A DNA stretch of 64,000 bases from Tachypleus tridentatus. Its lineage: Eukaryota > Arthropoda > Merostomata > Xiphosura > Limulidae. The DNA is taken from positions 167,255,310 to 167,319,309 of the forward strand of contig NC_134837.1 of the NCBI RefSeq assembly GCF_004210375.1, read 5' to 3'. The position numbers were made by a program, and so were the translations under genes. Within the stretch, counting starts at the first letter, position 1. Every line of letters begins with the position of its first letter. Positions 3,028 to 63,929 of this stretch are shown here, piece by piece. Under the pieces are notes generated by a model. That model did not search any database, was not told the DNA's origin, and was given only the letters and a program-made list of their open reading frames with translations.

Positions 3028-4235
3028 GTTTATAGTGAGGACAGAAAATGTGTGAATCGAGAAGAACGTAGTTAAAACATACTTACATGAAATTTACAGA
3101 TCTTCTCGTAAGACCTCTGTAAAGATAAAAAACTTAGACATAAGTCATATAAAAATAATAATAATATATTTTAAAACAATTCGGATTAAAACAAAATGGT
3201 TTTACTTATTCCATTTGTATTTAAATAGTTTAAGTTTGAAAACATGGTTATTTATTTTTTAAACAATGAAAAAAAATAAACGAAAATTGATTCATCACAG
3301 ATCATTTTTTCTTTGTTATTAGCACATAGATACACAACGAACCATACTCACCCCAGAACCCGATTTCAGTGTGATAACTCTTCCAGTTTACCTCTGAGTC
3401 AATCGTAAAAAAGTGAGCTATTTGATGCTATGAAATTCGTATACTTAAATATATATTACATTCTATGCTGAGTTCCGATAACTAATAACTCTCAGTTAAA
3501 AACCAAAATGATGATAAACAGGAAAATATATTACTTCATCTCAATTTGCCAAGCTCTAAGTTTACAGAAGGTCTGTCAATATCCACATCAACAATACGGG
3601 AAAGGGCGCCTTAGCCAAGCTTTAAGTTTACAGAAGGTCTGTCACTATCCACATCAACAATATGGGAAAGGGCGCCTTAACCTTACAGCCTCTTTTTCCA
3701 GCAATAGTGTTCTATGTGAAGGCCCTGTCTATGGACTGTTGTTTTACAGTGCAAGTTTCACTACGAATTATGCAACGTTGTCCTCTCTCCTCTTTACTTA
3801 TCTTCCAAAGTCCATCAACCGTAAGTGGACGCGACTTCCTTTTGAGTAAACCCAAAAGAGTTGCTGAGAGCAGTATAATAGATATTTACGTTTAAATTTG
3901 TACCTCGATGGAAAACTAGCGCACTAACTTTGACTTGTGACTGGATGTTTTGTCTGGATACAACGTATACATGATTGATACTTAGTTCGTAAAAAGGTAT
4001 TGTTTTCGTGTAGTGTTTGATGTCAGGAAGTTTAACTTCACAATGTGTAAGATCAGTCTTTAATTTTCCCCAACCCTCTGAGTGTTTAATTCATCATTAC
4101 AGTTGTAGATTGAAACCTCCATAAATCACTGAAAAATAGTTCATGATGTGCTTTGTGTATGTTTGAAACACTATACCATTGGTAAGACATTAATAAATCG
4201 CCAAAGTTTGCACATTTTTAAATAGACATATTCTT
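3028..4235. other. Non-coding stretch with an unrecognised open frame
   Basis: Apart from the 66-bp duplication I see no repeat of a known type. An open frame at 3508-3849 (113 codons) covers the duplication but has no recognised domain. A very short exon-like segment on the minus strand near 3355-3405 is described under findings. Confidence 0.4.
3549..3680 (+). repeat. 66-bp tandem duplication, two copies
   Basis: Two adjacent 66-bp units starting CCAAGCTCTAAG and CCAAGCTTTAAG differ at only a few positions. Since 66 is a multiple of three, an open frame (3508-3849) runs through both and repeats KVCxYPHQQYGKGRL. I do not recognise the peptide; coding potential is doubtful. Confidence 0.85.
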
Positions 4236-4351: not shown

Positions 4352-6324
4352 CGCAGAGACATATGCTTCATGTAGTGTGATGACATACTTTCATTTGTTG
4401 CATACCAGACAGAACTTTCGGCAGTTAGACATTTGTTGCTACTAAGGTGATTTTTGTTTTATATTGTAAATAATTTCGCACCACAGTTGCAATGAATTAT
4501 TATTTTCTTTGATTACTTCCATAATAATGTGTTTAACATTTTCATCACTATTGGTTTGTTTTTTGTTTTTTTATCTGCTTGGTTCACTTGTAGAAATATC
4601 CATTTAATTAAATCATGAATACTTTATGATTTGTATTTTTATATATTTGCAGAATAGAAGAATTTCATACATTCCAGAATCCTCTGACATCACCATATCA
4701 GAACAGGCCAACCTCAGGCGTCATCTGCACTCGTAAATTATTGAAGTTCAAGTTTATTGCACCAGAGGGTCATGATTTAGAACATGTGTGCCATAGGCAA
4801 CGGGGATGCCTAAGATCAAGATGATTAAATATGCAACTTATTAACATAGAACGTAAAAGCTCTACGTAATAACTTATTTTACTAAACCCATTATTGTTTG
4901 CTCATATAAATGAACTTTATGATTTTTTTACGATGCAATTAAACAATTTTTAATTAGAGTTTTCTGAATGCAGTTTTCAGCAAAAATACAACTTTGGAAC
5001 CAAATGTATGTACGTACATCCTCTATAATTAATATTAAATGTGGAAAGTTTTGCATCTCTTAATGAAACACACAAAAAAAGAAAAATATATTTATCCACC
5101 AAACACTTTGGTAAAGATGTTCTTTCACTAAAAACAGAGCACATTACCGGGATTTAGATATAATTATCGTTTACTGGACGTTAAGGATTAAAATGAACAA
5201 TCGCTTGTAATTCTGAATGCAAATATTTTGAAGAAATCGTGTCACTCACATCTTATATATATATATATATATTTAAATCAATATTATGTTAAATTCAACA
5301 GTCATTTTGTTATCGATGTTGGGGTTAATCCTTTGACAAAATCACCCAATTTCAAAACTGCCTTGTTGAAACCTTAATATCTTAACAACCTATTTAGGGT
5401 AACAATTAATGTACAGCTTTAGCAGAGAGACCGCCAATTGTTTTAACCGCTCATTATAGCTGAATAACACTAATTACTGTAATTGTAATTATTGTTATTT
5501 TTAAAGTTTTATTATTATTGTTATCTTTCTCATATTTTATTATCACTTGCACCTGTTAGCTAGTTATTAAGGTTTAACCTCATCATATGTTTTTGGTATT
5601 GTAAGCTAAAATATTGCTATCAGCGAGGGAACTGTACTAATGAATCACTGTGTTCTATTCATTACATGTTTTTATTTTATGACTTTGCGTACTTCCAATA
5701 AGAACATTATATTACGTTACCTATGATAGTCAATTTTTACACATAATCTTTGTATGTATGTTAATTTGATCAGACGGTATTAATAATGTGTAATTATCAT
5801 ACTCTTGGTGGTTTTCTAAATCCTTGCAATATTATTTACACAAGAGCTAACTACGCTAGCAAGTCCCTGATTTTGAACTGATAAAGTGGGTGGATGGTAG
5901 CTAGTCAACAAAATCCACGGGGATAGTTTGCTATAGACATTTTAATAAAACAGCTTTGTGATTACGACATATTAGTAATTTAGAGCAAGTTAAACATTGT
6001 AGGATTATTCAAAAGTACGATATTAGCATGTGAGAACGGTAGGGGGAGCAGTAGATCCCCTGATTAATGTTCCGGAATGTTTATAACTAATGTGCAAGTA
6101 ATACAAAATGGTGTTAAGAGAATATCAATTAGTCATTTTATCACTTAAATTATATATACCGTCTTACAACTGCAAAGAAAGATACGTAAGTACGACCTAT
6201 AAAAGGGAACTATCATAATACAAGCAACATAGACATGAAATAATTAGTATTCTGAGGTCAAACTATGTGGTATTTAGCAAATATTTATGTATAAAAGGAA
6301 TATATGCTGTCGGAGGATGTTTAA
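4352..6324. other. AT-rich intergenic DNA, no gene seen
   Basis: There are no open frames above about 60 codons and no recognised repeats except a short (TA)n at about 5256-5271. Confidence 0.6.
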
Positions 6325-6607: not shown

Positions 6608-7695
6608 CCTCTTTCCAATTAAATTCCTATTTGAAAACAAACTAGCGCCATCTGTCATTAATATTTAATATTAAATGTTTTGTACAAAATAAGTATTCAT
6701 TATTGGATGTTAGTGTCCTCTCTTGGCATATATAAATGAAACTCATTAGCAAAGAGCTCGGTTCAACCTAAGGAAAATGTGATATTTAAAATTCTTGTTC
6801 AACTTTTTACTAGTATGATAGAATAACTCTCAAGAGAATTCGTTTGTATTGGCCCTTCTATTTCGTTTGAAATATCAATTAAAACGTAATTGGTGTATTT
6901 GTTTATTTCTACAAAGAGCGATACTAGCTCTCTGTTAAAAAAAAGCAAGATATAATCCATCGTATGAAACATTAAATTAACAAATGTAATTTACTTCTGT
7001 TTCACATATTACAGCGATGAATATTACCCTTAATATCTCGCGGGGACTGTTTGTAGTAGCATTCATTTTATGATATTTTAATGTCAAAAGAATAATAATT
7101 AATCAAATCAAAATTCTATGTTCATATTAATGTTATCAGCAGGACAGAAAATATAATTTTCTCGTGTCGTTTTGAATAATTATCTTGTTTTAAACCATCA
7201 GTATAAAGTGTAAACACCACTATTATTCGTTTTGTTTATTATTATTGTTTATTTCAACAAGCTTTTAAATTCAAGTAAAATCATATAATGTCATATTCAA
7301 TTTTATTCTTAAACACCTTTAAACTACTGCCTCGCTTTCTACTTCCTGGGTTGCAAATAACAGTAATACTGGACAGCAATTTAACCATATCAAACCAGAT
7401 CGTATTTGAAATGATATTGTGCCCATTAAAACAAGTTATATATCTTATCAGTGAAATCTTGAAGAATTTCTTATCAAAGTTATTCTGGAGTAAGTGTATA
7501 AGTGAGGTTTTAGTACCTGAATATGATGGAACTACAAGATGGTGTGGTGCGGACAGTAAGAATAAAATTCATAAATTAAATTCAACCTTTAGACACAATG
7601 CTTCTTAAAACGAAGATTTCTCAAAACGATGGGTTCTAACAAAAATAAGATAACGCATGCTGAGTAAACAATTATTGAATTATTTAATTATTTCA
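6608..7695. other. Intergenic DNA with an unrecognised 106-codon open frame
   Basis: The frame at 7288-7608 starts MSYSILFLNTFKLLPRF. It has no recognised domain and AT-biased composition like its surroundings, so it is probably fortuitous. Confidence 0.4.
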
Positions 7696-43478: not shown

Positions 43479-43595
43479 TCACTTGCTACGATCCCTCAAA
43501 CGTAGTTTAATTGGCTCACTTGGAGTTGTAATCATTCTCATAATGATTCCCACATCTTTTGTGTTAGCGGGCACCAGGTGAAAATTTTGAATTAC
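43479..43595 (-). CDS. CYP315A1: CYP315A1-like terminal exon 8
   Basis: This exon is too short to appear as a long open frame. After a good acceptor (CTCTACAG) in phase with exon 7 it reads VIQNFHLVP, then MRMITTP and SEPIKLRLRDRSK, then TGA at 43481-43479. The pattern, with a short beta-sheet tail ending in a basic segment, is the normal C-terminus of mitochondrial P450s. It encodes residues 514-551. Confidence 0.9.
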   Translation of the reverse strand, partial: VIQNFHLVPANTKDVGIIMRMITTPSEPIKLRLRDRSK

Positions 43596-46500
43596 CTGTA
43601 GAGACAAGGAAAGGCCCATAACTTACAGATATGTGTATCTATTTAATAATAAGGTTGTGTTACAGTTCTTCACTAATTAAGACATGCATAAATCACATGA
43701 TAAAATTCATAAATAAATAACGTTTTGGATAACCTAACTTGTGTGTTAATATTATGTAACATTTTATCTTCTGAGTAATGGAAAATTAAAGTACTGTTAT
43801 TAGGTAAAAACAGTAAAACCAGCCTTATCCAGTTCAGTTGCAAAACCTACTTGGTAGAACATTATTATAATATAAAACTAACTTGTCCACTTTTAATTAT
43901 AAAGTAAAAAAGTCATTACTACTTACTTTCGCAAGAAGAAACTGCATCTGCATTTCTGCCACTCGACGACCAATACAGGATCGAGTGCCAAATCCAAACG
44001 GTAAGCATGCAAATGTATTAATGACGTCACGAGTGTCCCGATTCCGTAGCCATCTGTCAGGTTTGAATTTACTTGGCTCTGGGAAGAATCTAGGATCTCT
44101 TCCAGTTGTATACAAAGACATCAGGATAAGTTTCTAGAATGTTTAAAATTCTCTATTATCAAAGAGTTGTAGCACATCTTACAATTTATTACTTTTTTTT
44201 ACTTTTCGTAGCATAATAATGGATCATATGAATAAATAACATTTCCAAAATCATGCGCTTTGGCAGAATTTATCATTCTGTCATTTAATATTGTTTTAGG
44301 ATGTCGACGAAATTTAAGATTCCTGAAATCAATTAGATGATGTAAAACAGGAAATAAATTAATACTTTTTAACATAATCTATTTCAAACAGTTCTCATTA
44401 GAAGCAGAAATAATGTTTCATTTGCAATTTCTGCCGTTCTTTATTTGAAAGTTAACAGAACATGTTTTGTAGTAAATTCAACTAAGTTTTAATGTGAAAA
44501 TGAAGTTTCAGTTTCAGATTATACTATTGAAAGTAAATCATTTTACGACTTTGAGATGAATTCAGTTATATTGTATCAAAAACAAAGGAATAATGATAAG
44601 AGTAATGTAGGAAAAAACCAAGTTATAATTAAAATATTCCGAACTAGCTCACAATGTTCGAAGTGCTATTTTGGTAGTAAAGTGTTGAAACAGAATGTAT
44701 TTATCTTTTATCACAACTTTAGCCTTGAGAATATGTTTATAGTCTATAAAGTATATTACAACCAGTACTGAAACACCATATACTTGATAATAATGAATCG
44801 GTCCTCATAGAGTATGCAGTGCTTGGTAAGGCTTAGAAAGTTCATTTATTGGTATAGACAACCATTTGGAGCAAAGAATACACGAGAAAGGAGTTGACAT
44901 ATCTTTAAAAATGATGCGGTATTTATGATTTTAGTATTCTATAAGTTAGAGCGTGTCTACTGCTACTACCACCTAAACTTGTTGCGAGTAATATACTGAA
45001 TAAACAGGAAAGTAGTGGAAAGTGACTGCCAAAAATTGAGGACTTCTCACTCCATACGAATTTTGAAAGATATTATTAAACCAATATTACACTTATAATC
45101 AAACTTCATCATGAAAAATATTAATGAGAATTCCAGACGGTGAATGAGCACTGGGAACTCCATAGGCCGTTCGTCTCGTCTTTAATGCAAAGTATCTGGT
45201 TTCCTTTGCCTTGAGAATCTGAATGTATTCAACTTGGGCATGACAAAACAAAACACATAACTTAACTGACTAACGAATGAATATTTGCTATAAAATTTGT
45301 ATCGATGCTCTAAATGTAGGCCCAATATGGCCAGTTGATTAGGGCGCTCAACTTGTAATCTGAGGGTCTCGGGTTCGAATCCCTGTCACACTAAAATATG
45401 CTTGCCCTTAACTCCCTGGGGGCGTTAAATTGACGGTCAATTCGACTAATCTATGGTAAAAGAGTAGCCCAAGAGTTGGCGGTGGGTGGTGATGACTAAC
45501 TTCTCTCTAGTTCTACACTGTTAAATATGGGACAGATAGCGCAAATAGCCCTCGTGTAGCTCTGAACGAAAATTCAAAACAAACAAACAAGCTGTAAATG
45601 TAGCTACCAGTTTAGCTGCTAATTCTTCTTTCATTTCTTTAAGTTGCACGCCCCATATTTTTATCACTAAGTTCTATTTTATTAGATATCATGACATTTG
45701 TCAAAATCAACAAATAACCACAGCAAGTAAAGAGTGACACTCGATACTAAGTAACACAGATGCCTTGCAATATATAAGATCATTCTACTAAACTGTCAGT
45801 TTTCATTTGGGCAAAATTAGAAGCAGAAAATGAGGTGGTTTGTATAATTTTTAGATTTATTCGGGAAAGCGTGGTATAAAAATTTCCTAACTCATAACCT
45901 CATTCGTGCAAATATTGTACAGCTTCCTCTGAAAAATCTATGCTAACCGAATTAACTTTAGAGAATCACAACCCTATTTTACAGAACACATCTATACTTT
46001 ACAGAACCACCAGATTCCTTAATATATTATATATAGTGGTAGTCTTTCTTGCTTAAGCTAATATCATAGGATGCTAAACGCCCTGTTATTAATTAGGATA
46101 GTTTCACAAAAGTTATAAAATCTATGCTTAAAAACTGGCAATGAATAATTAATAAAAACTGTGTACCCATATGATTCTTTTTAAAAATTAAGCTCTAAAC
46201 TCATGAACGAGTTTGCTTGGTCTAATCAATACTTATGTGTCTGAATATCCTTTCACCTAAGTTTTGCGACTCTAAATCAGCCATTTTAAACTGAAGCACA
46301 AAAACTGGAAAAGGTCCACTGTTACTTTTACAAGAAGCAGTGATACAAATTTTAGACTGATAGATCAAGTGATTCTTTTTGTACGCATGTGCACATCTTT
46401 TGGTCAAATATAAATGATTTTCATTGAATAACCATGCTCGTATAATTCTTAATGACACAATACTGCGTGTCTTTTTTTTTCAGTTAATTGGAATTAATAT

Positions 46501-49500
46501 TAATATTTTCACTACATTTTAGAGGAGCTAGGTTTGATGATAAAAAGCTAGATCAACCCAACTATGGTGGCACAGTTATTATTGTCATTTTGATTTTTTA
46601 ATTCATGTAGTAATGCTCTCTGGCACGTACTTACAATGTTGATAGTTATCGTCTACTGTTGGTTTGGTTTGGTTTGTTTTGAATTTCGCGCAAAGCTACA
46701 CGAGAACTACCTGCGCTAGTCGTCCCTAATTTAGCAGTGTAAAACTAAAGGAAAGACAGCTAGTCATCACCACCCACCGCCAACTCTTGGGCTAGTCTTT
46801 TGCCAACAAATAGTGAGATTGACCATCACATTATAACGCCCACACGGCTGAAAGGGCGAGCATGTTTGGTGTGACGAGGATTCGAACCCGCAATCCTCGG
46901 ATTACGAATCGAGTGCCTTAACCACCTGGCCATGCTGGGCTTTAGTGTTGGACATAAGTAAATAAAAGCATTGTAAAAATGTGCATCCAAAGATATTAAA
47001 TTAAAAATATTGCCGTATGAAGCAATATTTGACTGGTCAGGCTATTGCCATAGCTAATCAACTTGGCATATGATGTGTGAAAAGCATACTGCCCGACATG
47101 TAAAAAATGCCATTTCTATGGGTGTCTGGAGAGTCATGGTTCCAGAAACATTTTAAAAATTTAATACAATTAGATTGAATTTTGTACTATTTTAACCAAA
47201 AACATTGCGTACACGCAACGTAATGTGTTGAACTTAAAAGTTATGGTGATGTATAGTTAAGTTATAGTCCTATATGCCATGAAAAAGTTGTCAAGCCATG
47301 ATCTGAGTGGTTGTACCGGTTCCTGCAGCCCTGAAAGTCATATACAAAGCATAGTATTTGATTTTTAAAATGAATAAGGATATAGTTGTTTTGTATCTGT
47401 TCTGTTAACATCGATGTTAAACATATTCATAATAATAATATTAAATGTAAAAAGTTTAACAAAACTACGCCAAAAGGGAGTGATATTAAAACACTCCATT
47501 AGAAAGTATTTCAATAGCGAAGGAAAGTACATACCCCAGCAGGAACCTTGTAACCATTAAGAATAATGTCTTGTGACAAAATTCGAGTCAAGAAGGGAGC
47601 AACTGGATACAGTCTGTTGAAGAGAATACGTTCAGTTATTTGATTCAGAAAGAACATTTCAGAATGCTAATTAATTTCGACAGACGGAGCCACAAGGTTT
47701 AACTTTATATCAAATCTATCTGCTTTAAATTGTAATAAAAGTGTTGCTTTATGTTCCGTAAGCTTAATTAATACACAACATTGAACAAAACATTAAAATC
47801 GTTGTCTAGACAATAAAAATAAATTATCAGTTATTGACATATATAATAGCTTTATCCTCACATATGTTTAGGTCTTAGTGCTCCTCATGGTAAGTTTACG
47901 GTTGTTTCTCTTAATCCATACCAAGCTAATATACTGAAATGTGCATGAAATTTCACATACATTACACATATACATGTTACACGGAGGTTAAAAAATACAA
48001 ATATGTTTAGTGCTCTAAACTAATGTCTAAGACACATCCGAGAAATATACATATTAAACTCAGATTCCATTTCACAAATAGTTTAGGAAACCACTCAAAA
48101 ATTTAAAAAAAGGGTACAGTAATAAAAAAATAAAATACTACCTTAGAGCTTCTTTTATCACAGCCTTTAAGTAGGGAAGTTGTTGAAGGTGTCCTTCTTG
48201 AATGACTTCTCTAGACGGTATGATTCTATTGACTTCTTCTGCAACCTTTTCTTGACATTCTGGGTATTTAGCCAACATATAAAGTGTCCATTGGGTAGCG
48301 TGCGATGTCTTATGTGACGAAAAATAAGTAATTATGGATTTTTTTTTACTGTTCATTTATGTATCTGTATCTTTGTGTCTGTATAAATAATATCAAGTGT
48401 CATTAAGGGAAAAAAATATACTAAAAGCCCTTGAAATTCTTTTTTTATTCTGAGTTTTATTTATATTTTTCGTGAACATAGTATAGTTGATTACAATGCA
48501 TACTAAATTTATTATATAAAATAATTTAACAATTCTTTTTAAGCACTTTCGAATAGTATCATTCGGAACTGCGCAAAAGTGTAAGAACAAAGTGAAACAT
48601 TAGATTTCAGGCTATTTTAAAAAACAATAGGAATAAATCAGAGATGAAACATCACAATTATATTAATCTTAATACTTAGAAATTAAATGAAATTGTTTGA
48701 GTTCACCAAACAACTAATATTTTGTGTGTCCCTCTGTTGCTTTGGAAAATACAGATAGTATTTTAGTTATTACTTTAACATCTTTAATAAAGTGTCCTTT
48801 GGGATTTTGCTCCAAATGTCTTTAATACACTTCCATAAAGTTTCTTTGGAATTAACTTTCGATTTGTTATGTTTTTTATTTTTTATCTCTAAAATCCCAG
48901 ATCTGCTCAGCTGGGCTGAGATCGGGGCTCTGTGAGAGCATCGCATCAAAAAAATAACTCCAGCAGCTTATTTCTTAATTGAGTAATTTCTTCATAGGTT
49001 GGATGAGTGTTTGTGGCCATTAACCTTTCGGTAGTATAATCATTCACCAATAATATGTAACAGGGTATACCATGACGGATCAGTATTTGATGGTAATTTC
49101 AATGCTCTGATATTCCATCTATTTTGCAAATATCTCCTGTCGCCTCAGCAGAGAAACACCCCCAAACCATCACACTGCTTCTCCTATACTTCCTGGTAGG
49201 TGCTATGCATTGAGGTAAGTAAATATCTTTGTCCTTTCTTCCGCTGGACGTACAACCTACGTTTTGAAGCAAGAATTTCAAACTTGGATTCATTCGTTTA
49301 TAACATCATTTTCCAATCATCAACAGTTTCTCTTTGTACTTTTTAGTAAATTTCAGTCTCTTGTCAATGTTTAGTGATCAAAGTATTTTTTTAATTGCTA
49401 CGCGACCAAATTCATTCTCGTTGACTCTCATTTATATTGTAGATTTGGTCACTTTTTGTCATTTGGTATATGTTCACTTAACTCGTACTTAAAATCAGTG

Positions 49501-52500
49501 GCAGCATTCCTTCCGCCACGAAGGCTTCCTAAACGAAATACTTAACATAAGTGTAACTGAGTTTAGGTATTCTGCCACTTACTTTATTTCCAGTTTTATA
49601 TGTATCGGTTTCAGTGTTTGGAGATTATTTCAAGTCTGCAGCATTATGTCGGAGATCGAACTCGTATCATGTAAAAACATTTATGCGAACTCTGTGTTCT
49701 ACTGACAATCCTTTTTGCTTTTTTGGCTGTGGCATAGCAACAAAACTTAATACATAATGTAAAACACTATTTTTATCAAAGTTTATTTGTGGAGTGCTAT
49801 TAAATTGAATTGTTGTAGTACATACCGATACCATAAGCTGTTTCCTTACTAGCTTCTTTCTATATAGTTAATACGCTGCATGGGTTATCACGATAGATAT
49901 TTCAAACCCTAAATTTGATCAGTATGTTCATTCAAACGAAACCCTTATAACATGCGTTGGGTGAGGATACATAGGAATTTTAAAGAATAAGTATTCTCAC
50001 ACTGGCTCATTCACTTGTTAACAGAAATCGGCGAAGCTTTAACAATGGTGAAACTTACATTTTCTAATGACATGGAAGAATTATCTCCTAAAATGAAAAG
50101 GATGACAAATATCCTCTTGTCGTAACACCTTTACACAGTAGTGTAGGTGTTATCACTGTAAGAACAACTAAAAACATGAGCATATCCGGATCTTAGTTGC
50201 ATAATAACAATTGAGGTAATGGATTTTCACCAAATTATAAGAACATATAGCACAACATTTCAATATTTTGAAAGCTCATATTTAGTATTAGATTTCATAA
50301 TGTATACTTATCGAATATTTGAATAAAGTGTAAAGAAGTTGCACAATTATTATGTCATAAACACGCTATAAACTTCCATTGAAAAAGTACTACTTTCCGA
50401 AGTAAGATTGTTTCCAGACATCACCACAAACATCATTTACTTTACAATATAGTTCATTTACTCGTTCAACTTGCTGTTGTACTTTCTGTTTTACTTTCTT
50501 AGTTGTTATTAATTTAGCAAATAGTTTATCATTTTCTCAAGCTTGTATGAGAACTATATGAAAGCTGTCGGACTATTTACAACGCAGTTAATAAACTTTA
50601 TAAAGAATTACATCACAAACTACTTTTATCAATGTGAAAATACTACACCTGAACAAAAACTGATCTTTTGTATGATGTTTGTTTGTATTTTAATTTCGCG
50701 CAAAGCTACACGAGGGCTATCTACGTTTGCTGACCCTAATTTAATAGTGTAAGATTAAAGGGAAGGCAACACAAACCATCGCCAACTCTTGACCTGCTCT
50801 TCCACCAAAGAATATATTTGATGTAATGGGGATTCGAAACCGCGACTCTCAAATTACAAGTAAGCGTCCCAACCACGTGGTGATGATAGGTTTTTCACAA
50901 GACCAAACAAACACTCTTTTTCCATATACTTCTAATGTCACTTTGTTACTTCTATAAATTTTGTATTTGTTACTGTTTCCTTTCCACTAATATTTTGAAA
51001 TATAAAACTAGCCTAGAAATCCTTATCTAAAAAATAAAAACGTATTATCAGTTAATATTACACTTTATCTCCTGAAATAAGTTGTGAATCAATTTTATCT
51101 AATTTGAAAAAATAAAAACAATTCATAATCAATTCCTTTTTTAAAATGAGAAATAGAAACAATGTTTGATATACCGTGTCAGCAGCTGCGAGAAAGAGGT
51201 CTGTGACAATTCGCACGATTTCGTCTTGTTCTATCTTGTCTTCAAGAAGCATTTGGCTTAAGACACCTTCTACTGGCTCTCCTGCCTCGGCCTTGGAGAA
51301 GATGTCTTTGACGTTATCTTCTACGTATGTTTTTGCTGCAATTAAAATACTATTCTTATAAATTGGTTGATGTGGAAATTGATCTGTCTAAACTAACTGA
51401 AAAATAATCATGTAATTAAAATTTCCGAATATTAATTTATCATGTTTTCTCAAAGCAGAGAAGTTGAAATAAAAATATGATTTATATTTTTATTAAAACT
51501 AGTATAGACTTTCACAGTGCATCAGATACAATCAAAAACAGTAACTTCTTAGTAGTCCAGTGGTAAGTCTGCAAGCTTTTGGCGAGAAAGCTCCGACTTT
51601 TCAACTCGTGGTGTGAGGAACAAATCTCTACGTAGCATTGTATTTAATAAAAAAACACTCTTTTGTTATGTAATTTTGTCTAACTCAAGGCACTTATGAA
51701 CACAGTCGTTCTCAATAGAGTATATGTTTGTTTAGTATCGCCATCTGTTGACCGAAATTATCTCTATAAGCAAATTCATGGAGAATTAGATTTATAATTC
51801 AATAAAGGTATATAGGCATAAAGAATAAACCTCGTGATAAAAATTAACTTATCTCATTTTTATCGTTTTATATATATAGATTGTGTTTTTTTTTGCAAAG
51901 TACTTTTGTATTTTTACACTATTTGTGTTTGTTTTTAGAAATTAGATGGTTGTCGTTTTTATTTTGTTTCTGTTTTACAGCAATATTTCTGTGAGCTCCC
52001 TATCTCATAAATTGTGTATATATAACCCATTATTTATTATTCAGTCCCGAACCGAAAGAAATTAAAAAATTCTTTTTAACTTACCACTATTATAAAAATA
52101 AAAAAATCGAAAGGCTTACCTAAACCTAAAGCTCTGTCAGCTGCCTGAACGAATCTCCGCCACACAGGTAATTTCAACCAGCACGCAAACCGAGGTGGGA
52201 TCATTGTCATATGAGCAGATTCCGTAAAGATTTGTTGAACACAGTGCACGAATTCATGAATATTCCCGATTTTACTGTCGGACGTCACACATCCCAAACG
52301 TCGTCCAAATATCATCGTTCCTAGAGCTGGGATGAACGATAATAATAAAAAAGCTTTGCTGTGTATTTATTTCATGTTGAAATACTTGTAAGAAATAATA
52401 TTAAATTTCCTTATTCTTGAATTTGTTGAAACAATGCTTGCACATAAATGGAACTTATCTAAAGAGACGTTTCGCACACCTTAGATAAATTTAACAATAA

Positions 52501-55500
52501 TTGTTTCGAAGTTTAAAAAATAGATAAGGTATTTACTACGAGAATTTCACGTTTCTTTTTTTTTTATAAATGCAAATTCATTATCATCATCAGTTGATAA
52601 AATAAGATCGGAGAAAATATCCCCTGAGAAACAGTACTTTTGGCATAACATTTCTGTACTGCAATGAAGTTCTCTGACGTACTACAGGGGCAAACTGTTT
52701 ATTTGGAATTATATAAAAAAGAAGAGAAGATTATTGCACAGAAATGAACTTAAGAAATACGGAGCTTTTTAGGTTTAGCTTGTAATATGAAATACGTAAG
52801 TTATGGGTACCTTAAATTATTCTTAGCTTAAAGTCTCTGATTTATCCTAGCTTGCAAATGTTTTTCGCGAAAATGTCTATATTGTTAAAATCAGCACCAT
52901 AGTAAATGAAAACGAATTTGGAGCTTCACCCCTTCGCTATAGCCCATGTCGCCTCTTCCGGTTATGTCTTTCCATACGACCGTAGTTTTTAAAAATAGCC
53001 CTGAAGCGTAGTTTCCATTGAAATGAACCCTTTCGTAAGGCTATAATGTCCAAATCACAAAAATCATACATGCTAATTTTCATAGTTCATTTAATGTACA
53101 AGAACTACGATTTCCTAGCGACCGTTTCAACAGTACAGTCTGACAACTTGGCTGATTTGTATGAATAGTATAAGTATCAATTTTACTTTCCAGCTACGTT
53201 GAGGCATGCGACAGTTGGAGGGATATATCGTAGAAGCAATTTGTTACTTAAGACACATGGATGGCTTAAGCCACTCATTTTTCAGTTTATGAATTCTTAC
53301 CAATTACAAGATCGCCACTTCTTACTCTGGTTGTGTACGACTTGTTTTTTATTTCTTTCTAGGTGGTTCTGGTACTTGATGTTGATCATATTCCTTAGTT
53401 TGTCAAGCACTTATTACATACCCTTAATAAGTACCTTTTATTCAAAACTGACCAATTTTTCAGTAGTATCGCACAACGTGACTTGGTGAGTTGCATATTT
53501 AAAATAATTTTAATATAATGCATTCAACCCTATGTATAAGAAAGTCTAAATCTCTATCATCCAATAAAATATAAATGAGGCTCAATGGTATAGCGGTATG
53601 TCTGCGAACTTACAATAGTGAGCAGAGCACAGAGAGTTCATTGTGTAAGCAATGTGCGTAACTTTAAAATAAAAAAAATATTCACAATGTTTTTTAGAAC
53701 CAAGTTGCCATTATGCAGTTATAAACAACTGAAATTGTTCACAAAAGACTTTCCAATTAGTCAATGTCGCCCTTATTTTTGTAAATAAAAAATAAATTAA
53801 ACAAAAACATGTGTAAATAAAGATTAACAGCCTTATAATTAAGTCATAGGATGATAAATTCTCCATAAAAATTTCTTCCGTCAATAAAATAAAAATATGT
53901 TCAATATTGTCTCCAACAGATGCTTTTTCCTTGTTCTATTTTTTTAATATTTTAGTACTGCTACGTCATAATTAGTCCTTTATACACAAGAAACTTTTCA
54001 AACGTAATATAACACTTTCAATTTCATGTTTGTCTTCCGTACAACTGTAACTGTTTCATAACGCTTTATTATTTCTAATTTTGCATTATTCTAAAACCAG
54101 AAGTAAAATTATTTTACAATATACCAGGAGCTGACCGCCATAGACATGAATAACTTGATTAAAACAGACAAAATTCTATGTCTACTTACAATCAATGGAC
54201 CAGTTGTAAAGTTCTAGCTATACTTACAATCAATGGACCAGTTGTAAAGTTCTAGCTATACTTACAATCAATGGACCAGTTGTAAAGTCCTAGCTGTACT
54301 TACAATCATTAGACCAGTTGTGAAGTTCTATCTATACTTACAACCAATAGATCAGTTGTAAAGTTATATCTATACTTACAATAAATGGGTCAGTTGTAAC
54401 GTTCTATCTGTACTTACAATCAATGGACCAATTGTAAAGTTTTATCTATACTTACAATAAATGGGTCAGTTGTAACGTTCTATTTATACTTACAATCAAT
54501 GGACCAATTGTAAAGTTTTATCTGTACTTACAATCAATGGGTCAGTTGTAAATTTCTATCTATACTTACAATCAATGGACCAATTGTAAAGTTCTCTTTC
54601 TAAATTTTCTAATTCCATATCTTCATCCCGTACCTTCCGCCATCTGTAAAGCAAGTCGTTGATAACCTCATTAAATACCCTAGCGTGATCCGAGACACTT
54701 TGTTGACGGAACACTTTGTTGAGGCTCTTACGCCTTTCACTCCATTGAGGGCCGTCCCTGGTTTTACAGAAACATTTATGTAATAGCCCGTGAGTTAGCA
54801 TCTGTTAATTAGCTCTAACTACACATTATTCGCATTTATATGGAACATTATTAAATTCTTAGTTTAACTTAAAATGTCAGATTCAAATTAAGTTTCTAAA
54901 GAAATAAGCATATAACAGTAAACATATGTAAAATATAAATTTAAAACACAATTAAGGACATGAAATTAATGCATAGGGGAGGATCCATTATTTCGTGAAA
55001 TTAGTCTAAGTAGAGTACTTACTATCAACAGATGTATAACGTTTAGTTAGGTACATTTATTGGATATTTTATTAATACTTTTTACTATGAGCATATTATA
55101 TTAAGAAGTGACTGATTTATACCACCTTACATTTAACTTTTAGGTGTTACTCGCGTTTGAGATAATCACCAATATATTCAATATAGTTGCATATCATTTC
55201 CTGCAATCGTAACATTTCTTTAAGCAAACTAGAACTGTACACTTACATAAAGAATAGTCCACGCTGAATACCGTTGATTTCATTGTAAATCAGCCAAGGT
55301 TCGGGGACCAGATGCATGGGGTAGCGCCCCTCATTTTGATAAACCCTCTGAATCAACTCACCCTCTGCAACAAACACAGCTTCAACAGCACCCAGTTTCT
55401 CACGATAGATACTGCCCAATTCCTTATGCCGTTTATCACAGTATTCATGGATTTTTGGAGCACCTCCACTGTAAAGGAGGTCAAATATTGTCCCAACCAA

Positions 55501-55776
55501 GGGAAGACCTTTAGGTGATGGAATATGGTCGTAAGGTTTGCCCGAGGTGACGCCGTTAAGGCAAGGCACTTCTGCAGGACAAGGTGCCTTAGCACCGGGG
55601 TTGCGATGACTGTGATGAAACGGACACCTGGCTTCAGCTGGCTGTAGCGACGATGACGTCAAACTTGAATGCAAGCATCTCTTTATGACAGTAGGACGAG
55701 AGGTGAAGCTATTTAAAACTTGTAGAAACTCTTTAACAAAAAACACACACAATCGTCGAGATCCTCTCACTGCCAT
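43479..55776 (-). CDS. CYP315A1: Mitochondrial cytochrome P450, CYP315A1-like (ecdysteroid 2-hydroxylase), 8 exons
   Basis: The coding exons are 55776-55247, 54757-54570, 52326-52120, 51335-51175, 48308-48142, 47613-47535, 44133-43927 and 43595-43479. Every intron is GT-AG, phases agree, and the sum is 1656 nt (551 aa plus stop). Visible P450 signatures are the proline-rich hinge (IPSPKGLP, residues 85-92), helix-C WxxxR (182-186), helix-I AAADTT (358-363), helix-K EALR (415-418), PDRW (469-472) and the heme loop FGFGTRSCIG with Cys497. The basic, Ser/Arg-rich N-terminus and the RR after the heme loop fit the mitochondrial clan, which takes electrons from adrenodoxin. From memory, residues 90-180 (GGAPKIHEY, YREKLGA, QRGLFFM) align best with insect Shadow, which hydroxylates C2 of ecdysteroid precursors. 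Function is inferred from family. Introns carry SINEs, a Tc1 copy and a splice-donor minisatellite. Another mitochondrial-clan CYP is the main alternative. Confidence 0.92.
43927..44133 (-). CDS. CYP315A1: CYP315A1-like exon 7 (PxRW and heme-binding loop)
   Basis: The acceptor ATTCTAG precedes 44133. The exon encodes residues 445-513 and begins KLILMSLYTTGRDP. It carries the meander PDRW (469-472) and heme loop FGFGTRSCIG (490-499), with Cys497 as the axial thiolate ligand. CIGRRVAE continues into helix L; the paired Arg residues are typical of the mitochondrial clan and its ferredoxin contact. The donor AAA|GTAAGT starts at 43926. Confidence 0.95.
45319..45590 (+). mobile_element. SINE family A, in P450 intron 6 (antisense to the gene)
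   Basis: The head reads GCCCAATATGGCCAGTTG, the B-box is GGGTTCGAATCC, the body has AAGAGTTGGCGGTGGGTGG, and the tail ends in AAACAAACAAACAA. It is in opposite orientation to the other intron 6 copy, so the pair could form a hairpin in the pre-mRNA. Confidence 0.92.
46663..46941 (-). mobile_element. SINE family A, near full length, in P450 intron 6
   Basis: On the minus strand it begins AGCCCAGCATGGCCAGGTGG (A-box), then GGGTTCGAATCC (B-box), CATGCTCGCCCTTTCAGCC, AGAGTTGGCGGTGGGTGG and the tail TTTGCGCGAAATTC followed by CAAA-rich sequence. It is one of the best copies in the window. Confidence 0.92.
47535..47613 (-). CDS. CYP315A1: CYP315A1-like exon 6 (small exon after helix K)
   Basis: This 79-bp exon has no long open frame of its own. 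I found it by looking for the conserved LYPVAP that must follow ExxR. The acceptor CAACAG ends at 47614; one base completes Arg418, followed by LYPVAPFLTRIL and GYKVPAG. The donor GGG|GTATGT starts at 47534. It covers residues 418-444, which form the beta-1 strands and the substrate-recognition loop after helix K. Confidence 0.92.
48142..48308 (-). CDS. CYP315A1: CYP315A1-like exon 5 (helices J-K, ExxR)
   Basis: The acceptor CATAAG lies next to 48308; its polypyrimidine tract is interrupted. The exon begins TSHATQWTLY and runs to KEALR, covering residues 363-418. Glu415 and Arg418 are the invariant ExxR pair that locks the heme-binding fold. The donor AG|GTAGTA at 48141 splits the Arg codon after two bases. 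Confidence 0.92.
48567..50140 (-). mobile_element. Tc1-like DNA transposon, decayed (copy 1), in P450 intron 4
   Basis: The ends are imperfect inverted repeats (left CTGCGCAAAAGTGTAAGAAC; right, read inward, CTGTGTAAAGGTGTTACGAC). Inside, on the minus strand, transposase pieces such as SVMVWGCFSAEATGDI and the basic CTSSGRK segment remain, with stops and frameshifts. It is homologous over its full length to the copy at 62433-63929. It lies antisense-neutral inside the P450 intron (same strand as the gene) and does not touch an exon. Tc1 transposases use a DDE-type catalytic triad; no intact triad remains here. Confidence 0.85.
50677..50890 (-). mobile_element. SINE family A, diverged, in P450 intron 4
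   Basis: On the minus strand this has a tRNA-like head with GGTTTCGAATCCCC (B-box-like), a body with GAGTTGGCGATGG, and the tail GTAGCTTTGCGCGAAAT. About 20 percent diverged from the best copies, with internal deletions. Confidence 0.8.
51175..51335 (-). CDS. CYP315A1: CYP315A1-like exon 4 (helix I, first half of the oxygen-binding motif)
   Basis: The acceptor ATTGCAG precedes 51335. The exon encodes residues 309-362 and ends LFLAAADT. The intron interrupts the helix-I motif between its two Thr residues, and exon 5 supplies the second. The usual second Gly of [AG]Gx[DE]T is Ala here; from memory fly Shadow has AAGDTT, so some variation at this site is normal in the family. The donor is ACG|GTATAT at 51174, weaker than the other donors in the gene. 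Confidence 0.92.
52120..52326 (-). CDS. CYP315A1: CYP315A1-like exon 3 (helices E-G region)
   Basis: This exon encodes residues 240-308, including MIFGRR, a motif typical after helix E in mitochondrial P450s. Two AG dinucleotides could serve as acceptor. The inner one (exon starting at 52320) would create TGA with the carried-over T. The outer one (start at 52326) gives Ser-Leu-Gly-Thr and matches the spacing of fly Shadow, so I chose it. The donor is TTAG|GTAAGC at 52119. Confidence 0.9.
53579..53670 (+). mobile_element. SINE family C, degraded, in P450 intron 2
   Basis: The head (GTATAGCGGTATGTCTGCG) and a shortened body with GCAGAGCACAGAGAG and TTGTGTAAGC are recognisable. The B-box region is deleted. 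Confidence 0.6.
54183..54600 (-). repeat. 38-bp minisatellite, 11 units, derived from the exon 2 / intron 2 boundary
   Basis: Eleven head-to-tail units of exactly 38 bp fill 54183-54600 with no remainder. The unit nearest 54600 is the true 3' end of P450 exon 2 (coding LYNWSID) with its donor. The other ten lie in intron 2. Each unit preserves TTGTAAGTA on the minus strand, so all ten intronic copies keep a consensus-like 5' splice site. Substitutions between copies fall mostly outside this nonamer. Because 38 is not a multiple of three and the unit has stops in frame, use of a decoy donor would generally truncate the protein. Confidence 0.95.
54570..54757 (-). CDS. CYP315A1: CYP315A1-like exon 2 (helix C region)
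   Basis: The acceptor AACCAG precedes position 54757; the first base completes Met177, giving FF-M-DGPQW, parallel to the MEGAEW I recall in fly Shadow. Residues 182-186 are the helix-C WxxxR that contacts a heme propionate. The exon ends LYNWSID plus one base, then donor GTAAGTATAG at 54569. The last 26 or so exonic bases and the donor form the parent unit of the adjoining 38-bp minisatellite, so this exon lies next to a run of copies of its own 3' end. Confidence 0.92.
55247..55776 (-). CDS. CYP315A1: CYP315A1-like exon 1 (start codon, targeting peptide, N-terminal P450 fold)
   Basis: This exon encodes residues 1-176 plus two bases of Met177. The first in-frame ATG is at 55776; the open frame continues upstream only through a TTG codon at 55869, so I chose the ATG. 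Its context has G at -3 and G at +4, which is favourable. Residues 1-45 are rich in Arg, Lys, Ser and hydrophobics with no acidic cluster, as expected for a mitochondrial presequence. Residues 46-80 form a Pro/Cys/His-rich linker. The conserved P450 body starts at about residue 83. The donor is AT|GTAAGT at 55246. Confidence 0.9.
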
Positions 55777-59017: not shown

Positions 59018-59190
59018 ACATTTTACCTTCATTCTGTTGTGTTTATTTTCATACAGTCTGGCTAAAGGTACATTTTACCTTGATTTTGTTGTGTTTTTTT
59101 TCATACAGTCTGGCTAAAGGTACATTTTACCTTGATTTTGTTGTGTTTTTTTCATACAGTCTGCCTAAAGGCACATTTTCCTAGCTAAAA
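59018..59190 (+). repeat. 52-bp minisatellite, about 3.3 units
   Basis: Units start ACATTTTACCTT at 59018, 59070 and 59122, and a partial one at 59173. Each contains TTTTTCATACAGTCTGGCTA. Copies two and three are nearly identical, so the array is fairly recent. Confidence 0.92.
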
Positions 59191-59327: not shown

Positions 59328-60219
59328 TACGAGGTCTGTTCAAAAAATACGCGGACTGTTTGAATTGCGCGGCTCTAGTTGGTTCCAGGGGAATCCGCTT
59401 GGTGTCGCTAGGTTTACACAGATCAGCTGATTACGACGCCATTTCCCGATTGCAGATATCTTTATTTGTGTATTATCTACGCGGTTTTAAGTGAAGTGCG
59501 ATTTTTTCGTTTGGCAGATTTCAGAATGAATGACCTGAAGGAGCAACGACTTGCTGTGAAATTTTGTGTTAAACTTGGAAAATCTGCGACTAAAACTTTT
59601 GCTATGCTTAACACGGCTTGAAGCGTACGGCATGTTTCAAGTGGCATGAACGTTTTAAGGATGGTCGACAGTCCATTGAAGATGATGAGCGTCCTGGACG
59701 TCCTTCCACGTCAACTGACGACCCACACGTTGACAAAATCAACACCCTGGTGCGGGCAAATCGACGTCTGACTGTCAGGGAGCTTGCTGAAGAGTGTGGA
59801 ATATCAGTTGGATCTTGTTACGAGATTTTCACCGAAAAATTGAAGATGCACCGCGTTGCTGCGAAATTTGTGCCTCAGAACTCGTGAGGTTTTGGCCAAA
59901 CACTCGATCACTGTTCTTCCCCCCCCCTACTCACCTGACCTTGCTCCTTGCGATTTTTTCTTGTTCCCCAAACTCAAAAGACCCTTGAAAGGAAGAAGAT
60001 TTGAGACGATTCCAGAGATTAAGGCAAATGCGACGAAGGAGCTGGAGGACATTACAAAAGAAGCGTACCAGGACTGTTTCAACAAGTGGAAACACCGTTG
60101 GGATAAGTGGGTGCGTTGGGGAGGAGAGTACTTTGAAGGGTTCCCAGACCTGTAACTTCTAAATAAAGTACATTTTGTTTTATGACGTCAGTTCGCGTAT
60201 TTTTTGAACAGCCCTCGTA
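59328..60219 (+). mobile_element. Mariner transposon, internally deleted
   Basis: Terminal inverted repeats CGAGGTCTGTTCAAAAAATA and CGAGGGCTGTTCAAAAAATA are flanked by TA. It is 892 bp; intact mariners are about 1.3 kb. The N-terminal transposase begins MNDLKEQRLAVKF at 59526, then after a short deletion WHERFKDGRQSIEDDERPGR and LTVRELAEECGISVGS to FVPQ. It then jumps (near 59883-59893) to VLAKHSITVLPPPYSPDLAP and runs to the C-terminus GGEYFEGFPDL. The gap removes the first two catalytic Asp blocks, so it cannot encode an active enzyme but keeps both ends. Confidence 0.93.
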
Positions 60220-62432: not shown

Positions 62433-63929
62433 TACTGTACAAAAGTGTTAGGACAGGAGTCAAAAATAGCATTTCAGACTACTTTCAAAAACAATGGAAG
62501 GTAAATCTCAAGTGAAACATAAACACTTTATTAATCAATCTTATTTAGAAACTCAGTGAAAGTGCTCGAATTCAGCAAACAGTTAATAATATTTGCTTTA
62601 ATTACAGCAGACAGACTTTCAGGCATTGTTGTAACATATTTAATCAAAGTGTTCTTTTGGAGTTTAATCTAAATATCTTTAATACAGTCCCATAAGATTT
62701 TTTTGGAAGTAGCTGTTGCTTTTTGATCTATCAAATCCCAGATCTGTTCAACTGGGTTGAAATCGAGGCTCTGTGAGGACCATAGCATCAGTTGAATGAC
62801 TCCAGGAAGTTCTTTCATAGCTAAGTAATTTCTGCATAGATTAAAAGAGTGTTTGTGTTCCTCTTGGTGGTAGAATTCTTTAACAATAATACTAGGTTTA
62901 TCATGACGGATCAGTATCTGATAGAATTCGTACTGGCTCACTATTTCATCTATTTTGTAAATATCTCCTGTCGCCTCAGTAGAAAAATACCCCCAAACCA
63001 TCACGCTGCCTCCCTCCTGCTTCATAGTAGGTATCTTTCACCTTTCTTCCGGCGGACGTACAACCTATGTTTTGAAACATACATTTCAAACTTGGACTCA
63101 TTCCAATTTTAGTACTTTTTAGCAAGTTTTAGTCTCTTTGACAATATTTGGTGATCAAAGTGAAGGTTTTTAAACTGCTACACAACCAAATATTACATTC
63201 TCATTGAGTCTTCTTGATACTGTAGATCTGGAAGCTTTTCTCACACTTGGTACGTGGTTGTTTATCTCATGCTTGAAATCAGTGGCAGTCTTCCTTCTGT
63301 CCCGATAGCTGCATAAATAAAGACACTTAACACCAGTGTCATTGAGTTTAGGTGTTCTGCCTTTTCCTTTATTTTCAGTTTTAAATGTATGAGTCTCAGT
63401 GTTTGGGAAGCATTTCAAGTTTACAGCAACTTAAAGAAAAGTACAACTAGTATCACGTAAAACTTTTATGCGAACTATCTGCTGCACTGAGAGTTGTATA
63501 TGCTTTTTGGGTTGTGGCACAACAACAAAACTTAATATATATAGTGTTAAAAGCTTTTTTATATATCAAAGTTTAGTTGTGGAATGATATTAAATTGATT
63601 TTTTGTAACATATACGGGTATCATAAGCTAGCTCCTTGGCAGCTTCGTTCTATATATTTAAGACACTGTATGAGTACCATTACAATTATTTTAGACTCAG
63701 TACCTTCGTTCAAGTAGAACCGTTATGAGATGCCCTTGGTACAAGTATATGGAGATTCTAAAGAATGATAAGTATTTTCATCCTGCCTTATTCAGTTGTC
63801 AATGGGAATCAGTGAAGCATTACAATTGTGTTAAAATTTATATTTACATTATAACGGCATGGAAGAATTAGCTCCATAAAATGGAAATAATGACAAAATA
63901 TTCTCTTATCCTAGCACTTTTGCACAGTA
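62433..63929 (-). mobile_element. Tc1-like DNA transposon, decayed (copy 2)
   Basis: Terminal inverted repeats TACTGTACAAAAGTGTTAGG and TACTGTGCAAAAGTGCTAGG start with TA, the Tc1/mariner target. On the minus strand the N-terminal helix-turn-helix part (63418-63170, with RKASRSTVSRRLNE) and the catalytic part (63025-62669, with SVMVWGYFSTEATGDI and SLDFNPVEQIWD) survive. The second catalytic Asp seems lost: FYHQEEHKHS stands where FQQDNxPKH is usual. Frameshifts separate the pieces, so it is non-autonomous. Confidence 0.88.

Follow-up and report, generated by a model that had tools for sequence, protein, structure and literature searches.

Turri, Cuin and Porter reportedly described in 1995 (NAR 23:1854) a minisatellite with multiple splice donor sites in the human gene IFI6 (6-16/G1P3). 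It reportedly sits where an exon meets an intron and has a unit of about 12 bp. In the accessible text of a later source, two downstream IFI6 repeat units act as donors and give rise to three mRNA species (PMC4526556). The intron-6 VNTR of hTERT is an intronic tandem repeat with a 38-nt unit, the same length as the unit described here, and the available part of PMC8150890 reports that it influences exon choice. At the third intron of the Drosophila P element, also an arthropod case, donor-like sites beside the real donor go unused as donors according to the available sections of PMC7776569.

The window, a 64,000-nt stretch of the Tachypleus tridentatus genome, contains a P450 gene on its reverse strand whose intron 2 opens with a tandem array. 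TRF placed a 38-bp repeat of 11.2 copies at 54170-54595 of the window (85% matches, score 614), and setting the units in register gave eleven full copies, head to tail and within the unit range of roughly 10-100 bp that defines a minisatellite. We read the array as a locus-specific minisatellite that began where exon 2 meets intron 2 in one of four related P450 genes, grew into the intron and is tolerated rather than selected, with a probability of roughly 0.6. The features of the gene and the array are as follows.

55247..55776, reverse strand: P450 exon 1, coding part from the ATG (gene model)
54570..54757, reverse strand: P450 exon 2, 188 nt, ending in phase 1 (gene model)
52327..54569, reverse strand: P450 intron 2, 2243 nt, its 5' end occupied by the array (gene model)
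52120..52326, reverse strand: P450 exon 3 (gene model)
51175..51335, reverse strand: P450 exon 4 (gene model)
48142..48308, reverse strand: P450 exon 5 (gene model)
47535..47613, reverse strand: P450 exon 6 (gene model)
43927..44133, reverse strand: P450 exon 7, with the heme-binding Cys motif (gene model and motif)
43479..43595, reverse strand: P450 exon 8, with the stop codon (gene model)
54178..54595, reverse strand: minisatellite of 11 full head-to-tail 38-bp units (TRF and units set in register)
54558..54595, reverse strand: unit 0 on the exon side, made of the 3'-terminal 26 nt of exon 2 and the opening 12 nt of intron 2; the first intron base of the true donor is 54569, and the exon end is conserved in three paralogues
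54178..54557, reverse strand: the ten units in the intron; each contains TTGTAAGTA, and their decoy donors lie at 54531, 54493, 54455, 54417, 54379, 54341, 54303, 54265, 54227 and 54189
54368..54519, reverse strand: units 2-5, two copies of a 76-bp dimer (2 differences between units 2 and 4, none between units 3 and 5, 7 between neighbours)
54178..54215, reverse strand: unit 10, the intron-side end of the array (register of units)
54556..54558, reverse strand: in-frame TAG that transcripts from any decoy would include (reading from exon 2)

Set in register, every unit consists of 26 bases that match exon 2 at its end, followed by 12 that match the start of intron 2. The array thus has the layout of the IFI6 kind, spanning the exon 2/intron 2 boundary with GTAAGTA in 11/11 units; these runs start at 54569 and at each of the ten decoy positions listed, and the longer TTGTAAGTA is likewise present in 11/11. 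The preliminary description had taken the 38-bp unit for the end of exon 2 (LYNWSID) plus its donor, amplified in tandem into intron 2, and had counted one true donor at 54569 followed by ten decoys. Both claims are borne out, the first by the unit register, the gene model and the paralogue alignment, the second by the eleven GTAAGTA starts at 38-nt steps; the array that it had put at 54183..54600 is there, with its full units at 54178-54595. The edges are sharp. The outer flanking 38 bases agree with even their closest unit at 14/38 positions or fewer on the exon side and at 16/38 or fewer on the intron side, and the array therefore starts in the exon and stops in the intron. Searching the window for a 30-base core, up to 3 mismatches being allowed, gave 9 matches, every one inside the array; 100 shuffles averaged 0.00. 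Copy-number polymorphism between individuals is plausible, and a survey of the literature by titles and abstract openings turned up no description of this P450 array.

The host gene model comprises eight exons with GT/AG borders and consistent phases, encoding 551 amino acids with no internal stop. Its translation matches the Pfam P450 domain PF00067 (E 4.8e-102, 342.5 bits) and contains FGFGTRSCIG and KEALR, which we take to be the heme-Cys and ExxR motifs, respectively. The best 11 of 436 matched PDB sequences are vitamin D 24-hydroxylase, CYP11A1 and CYP11B1/B2, that is, mitochondrial steroid or vitamin D P450s. With its domain, both motifs and mitochondrial P450s as the closest among the matches listed, the enzyme falls within the mitochondrial clan. 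The earlier label of a steroidogenic P450 is upheld as far as a P450 of the mitochondrial kind, to which these best PDB matches extend; the steroidogenic role is putative. From its motifs, the gene is presumably CYP315A1/shadow-like and active in ecdysteroid synthesis. The joint of exons 2 and 3 reads ELYNWSID-SLGTMIFGRRLG, and PDB proteins align across it free of gaps (3 alignments). Hence, the true donor is at 54569.

A protein search of the genome (2,167,478,450 bases in 205 contigs) found at least three further copies of the P450 gene, near 109.50 Mb on C13, 125.48 Mb on C1 and 70.87 Mb on C2. Of 241 first-look candidates, 79 were scored, giving at least 50 matches of which many are other P450s, and more distant copies may be missing from this set. 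All 8 exons were matched in each of the three paralogues, with no stop in the 532-541 codons compared after exon ends had been trimmed. The end of exon 2 encodes ELYNWSID or ELYSWSID in 3/3 paralogues found and lines up as coding sequence across the four genes; on this alignment, the exon end in unit 0 is ancestral coding sequence. Pairwise dN/dS is 0.09-0.12 in 5/6 pairs, at saturated dS of 1.4-2.9; in the sixth pair dS is infinite. By these ratios the P450 reading frame is under purifying selection.

The paralogues carry one exon-2 donor each, their exon 2 ends reading GACT|GTAAGTTT, GATT|GTGGGTAT and GATT|GTTAGTAT. TRF found no 38-bp array in any of the three. When the exon end and its 12 adjoining nt were held against the 600 nt that follow, the best match reached 19-20/38 positions, compared with 36/38 in the window gene. 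Because all three have a single donor and no array, the repeat arose in one copy of the gene, from the exon into the intron, and most simply after the gene duplications. The four P450 copies likely derive from genome duplication; three rounds of it are argued for horseshoe crabs in the available text of PMC7815833.

Other tandem repeats lie in the introns of these paralogues. In the C13 copy, a 31-bp, 4.2-copy minisatellite (locus coordinates 3056-3185) starts 13 bases inside intron 1, and its unit holds CTTACC, which is complementary to a donor and resembles the U1 5' end. Repeats of 27-59 bp lie in intron 2 of the C13 copy, at locus coordinates 7187-7334, and by eye extend in degenerate form toward the exon-3 acceptor. 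Intron 4 of the C1 copy contains a 44-bp, 5.3-copy array with 97% matches (about 5234-5465 in locus coordinates).

What would use of the decoys do to the transcript? Splicing at decoy n would add 38n nt, beginning TGT AAG TAT AGA TAG, whose leading T is the final base of exon 2. All ten decoys would include a stop, since the TAG at 54558-54556 starts in unit 0 just past the true donor, so that the earlier expectation of added stops holds and its qualifier "mostly" can be dropped. Predicted U1 pairing gives little to separate the sites: -7.3 kcal/mol at the true donor, the same at 6/10 decoys, -7.0 at one and -6.8 at the remaining three. At -8.0 and -7.8, two GT sites that are unrelated to the array and lie deeper in intron 2 outscore the true donor, and U1 pairing alone therefore cannot pick the donor. 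Intron 2 also holds polyadenylation signals, five AATAAA and three ATTAAA by count, a figure relevant to U1 control of premature polyadenylation. As regards single-unit micro-exons, inspection by eye found that the unit end TATAGATAG has an AG and lacks a pyrimidine tract.

Decoys that pair with U1 as well as the true donor, or nearly so, and that all lead into the same early stop could act as a brake on splicing, competing for U1 or splicing to exon 3 to yield stop-containing mRNA; a longer array would then lower P450 output from this one gene copy. The donor run, unchanged in 11/11 units, fits such a role, and there are precedents in the accessible portions of two sources: in the P element, U1 binding to pseudo-5' splice sites blocks the real one (PMC7776569), and elsewhere intron retention is promoted by decoy or cryptic sites (PMC8706089). 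However, the two higher-scoring GT sites mean that the pairing score predicts little, and heavy loss of product is unlikely, unless the paralogues compensate, because the coding sequence is under strong purifying selection. We consider the brake doubtful. A bolder form of it, a "splicing rheostat" following genome duplication, would have each 38-bp unit add a donor and a route to stop-containing mRNA, with an array length alterable by slippage setting the dose of one hormone-making P450 copy; this we regard as quite improbable.

The opposite effect can also be envisaged. U1 particles bound downstream of an exon aid its inclusion, according to the literature in the part available, and the downstream units could help to define exon 2 while going unused themselves. 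Exon 2 ends ATT|GTAAGTA, a donor with poor exonic bases that might profit from such help. Yet 3/3 paralogues manage without an array despite donors of weaker predicted pairing (-5.4, -6.6 and -3.4 kcal/mol versus -7.3 in the window gene), and an aid to splicing is accordingly unlikely.

RNA structure offers a further account, in which the units fold back on themselves (ACTT(T)ACAA with TTGTAAGT), hiding donors or joining distant sites. Folded singly, 9/11 units (0-7 and 9) have the donor paired, and the 38-nt repeats of hTERT intron 6 act on splicing, with RNA:RNA pairing proposed in the available text of PMC8150890. The whole array folds no better than chance, however: its stability has z = 0.62 against shuffles, 74/100 of which were at least as stable, and a special structure of the array was rejected with its stability inside the shuffle range. 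Nor does predicted accessibility give the true donor an advantage: the values are 0.0008 against 0.0033-0.24 for the decoys with a span of 80, and 0.0027 against 0.0001-0.031 with a span of 150. Accessibility as the cause of true-donor choice was rejected on the same values, the true donor being no more accessible than the decoys. A structural role is very improbable.

The units themselves record how the array may have grown. Among the eleven, 15/38 positions are variable and 23/38 invariant, and units differ from one another by up to 9/38 bases. Mean distance between units is lowest at lag 2 (4.1, versus 5.3-5.8 at the other lags of 1 to 5). Since units 2 and 4 are nearly and units 3 and 5 fully identical, while neighbours are 7 apart, a 76-bp dimer was duplicated. 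Unit 0 groups with units 2 and 4, differing from either at 2 positions, yet it stands as close to unit 9 (2 differences) and departs from the consensus at 1 position; the tie of unit 1 to the 3/5 type is loose (4 differences). Past unit 10 the intron reads ATAGAATTTTGT, which resembles the between-unit joint ATAGAACTTTAC, and the first duplication may have started from this short homology. Assemblies easily mis-size tandem arrays; units 3 and 5 are identical, and the assembled copy number could be wrong by a few units. That the array as a whole is an assembly artefact is nonetheless extremely improbable, given units that differ by up to 9/38 bases and a length of only 418 bp.

The preliminary description had also noted that all eleven units keep the donor while other positions vary, and had seen in this a hint of either a young array or a constrained donor. 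The first part is confirmed by TTGTAAGTA in every unit beside the 15 variable positions. Across the nine donor positions (-2 to +6) there are 0/99 differences from the consensus, compared with 33/319 at the remaining 29 positions. This invariance has P = 0.005 if the nine positions are named beforehand and 0.099 for any nine-base run in the ring (20,000 shuffles); the Poisson chance of zero changes in nine positions is 0.004-0.014, given at least 18 independent changes. Because the donor positions were picked after the data had been seen and the units are copies of one another, these values are not clean probabilities and the invariance is a hint rather than proof. The invariance thus stands, and donor constraint across units is only suggestive. 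No decoy has lost its GT (0/10). This counts against the minisatellite account, on which mildly harmful decoys should sometimes have lost it; the invariance also argues against decoys that are strongly harmful.

To place the array in its genomic setting, we consider the frequency of similar repeats. Three GTAAGTA at gaps of 12-42 bases gave 39,073 genome matches (16,997 forward, 22,076 reverse) and the reversed control pattern 18,530 (9,111 and 9,419), about half as many; the GTAAGTA matches overlap inside arrays and include simple repeats, and do not amount to an array count. Tandem repeats with donor-like sequence are common in the T. tridentatus genome, and a chance origin of the array therefore suffices. 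With such repeats common genome-wide and the array fold at z = 0.62, the earlier suggestion that the array tunes splicing efficiency is not supported so far. A 451-base array query against the genome matched only itself and 63 bases at a paralogue exon-2 end, in a search that skipped simple repeats and gives lower bounds. In viral contigs, no relatives were found by DNA pattern or by protein, where 4 stretches matched a pattern and 0 were confirmed. Across the four gene loci (57.4 kb), TRF returned 14 rows, about 12 distinct arrays, 1 of them overlapping a coding exon match.

The surroundings of the gene hold further repeats. A 52-bp, 3.1-copy array at 59018-59179 of the window lies near a mariner-like transposase frame at 59612-60155 (the transposase named by eye). 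Intact or broken frames at 196-2275, 48700-49300 and 62672-63037 resemble, by eye, retroelement reverse transcriptase and Tc1-like transposases. A SINE in the window also resembles, we assume, horseshoe-crab SINEs.

Repeat growth of an ordinary kind, in a genome rich in repeats, is thus the most likely origin of the array, which may have an effect on splicing. Slippage or unequal exchange would have extended the exon-2/intron-2 boundary unit into the intron. Because the coding frame needs 54569 and every other array donor yields a stop, we infer that exon 2 is normally spliced at this exon-most donor. The decoys would be used at most occasionally, perhaps as leaky non-productive splicing, and the resulting mRNAs would be cleared by nonsense-mediated decay. 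Coding constraint would hold the exon part of unit 0 while the other copies drift.

Apart from the question of donor choice, the array is an ordinary minisatellite as a genome feature. That question gives it value as a natural test of splicing choice, in which one donor is taken among eleven near-identical ones 38 nt apart and the single-donor sister genes of the same genome serve as built-in controls. Should the decoys be ignored, there would be good reason to rank position or exon definition above donor sequence; should they be used, the array would reveal a simple route from repeat growth to changed gene dose.

Among known systems, hTERT intron 6 shares the unit length but differs in being human, in its 18-38 copies, in the RNA:RNA pairing proposed for it and in not consisting of donors copied from an exon end, as far as the accessible text of PMC8150890 describes it. 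The P-element intron, in the sections available of PMC7776569, has two sites upstream in the exon, bound by repressor proteins, and no tandem array. Intronic minisatellites of the T. tridentatus genome are alike in being tandem arrays, frequent with or without GTAAGTA, whereas the P450 array takes in 26 nt of coding exon. IFI6 and the P450 array are both minisatellites with several donors, putative ones in the P450 case; donor use is reported for IFI6 in the available text, whereas the P450 decoys are predicted, each bringing a stop. By its layout, the P450 array belongs with the exon/intron-border minisatellites that carry a putative donor in each unit.
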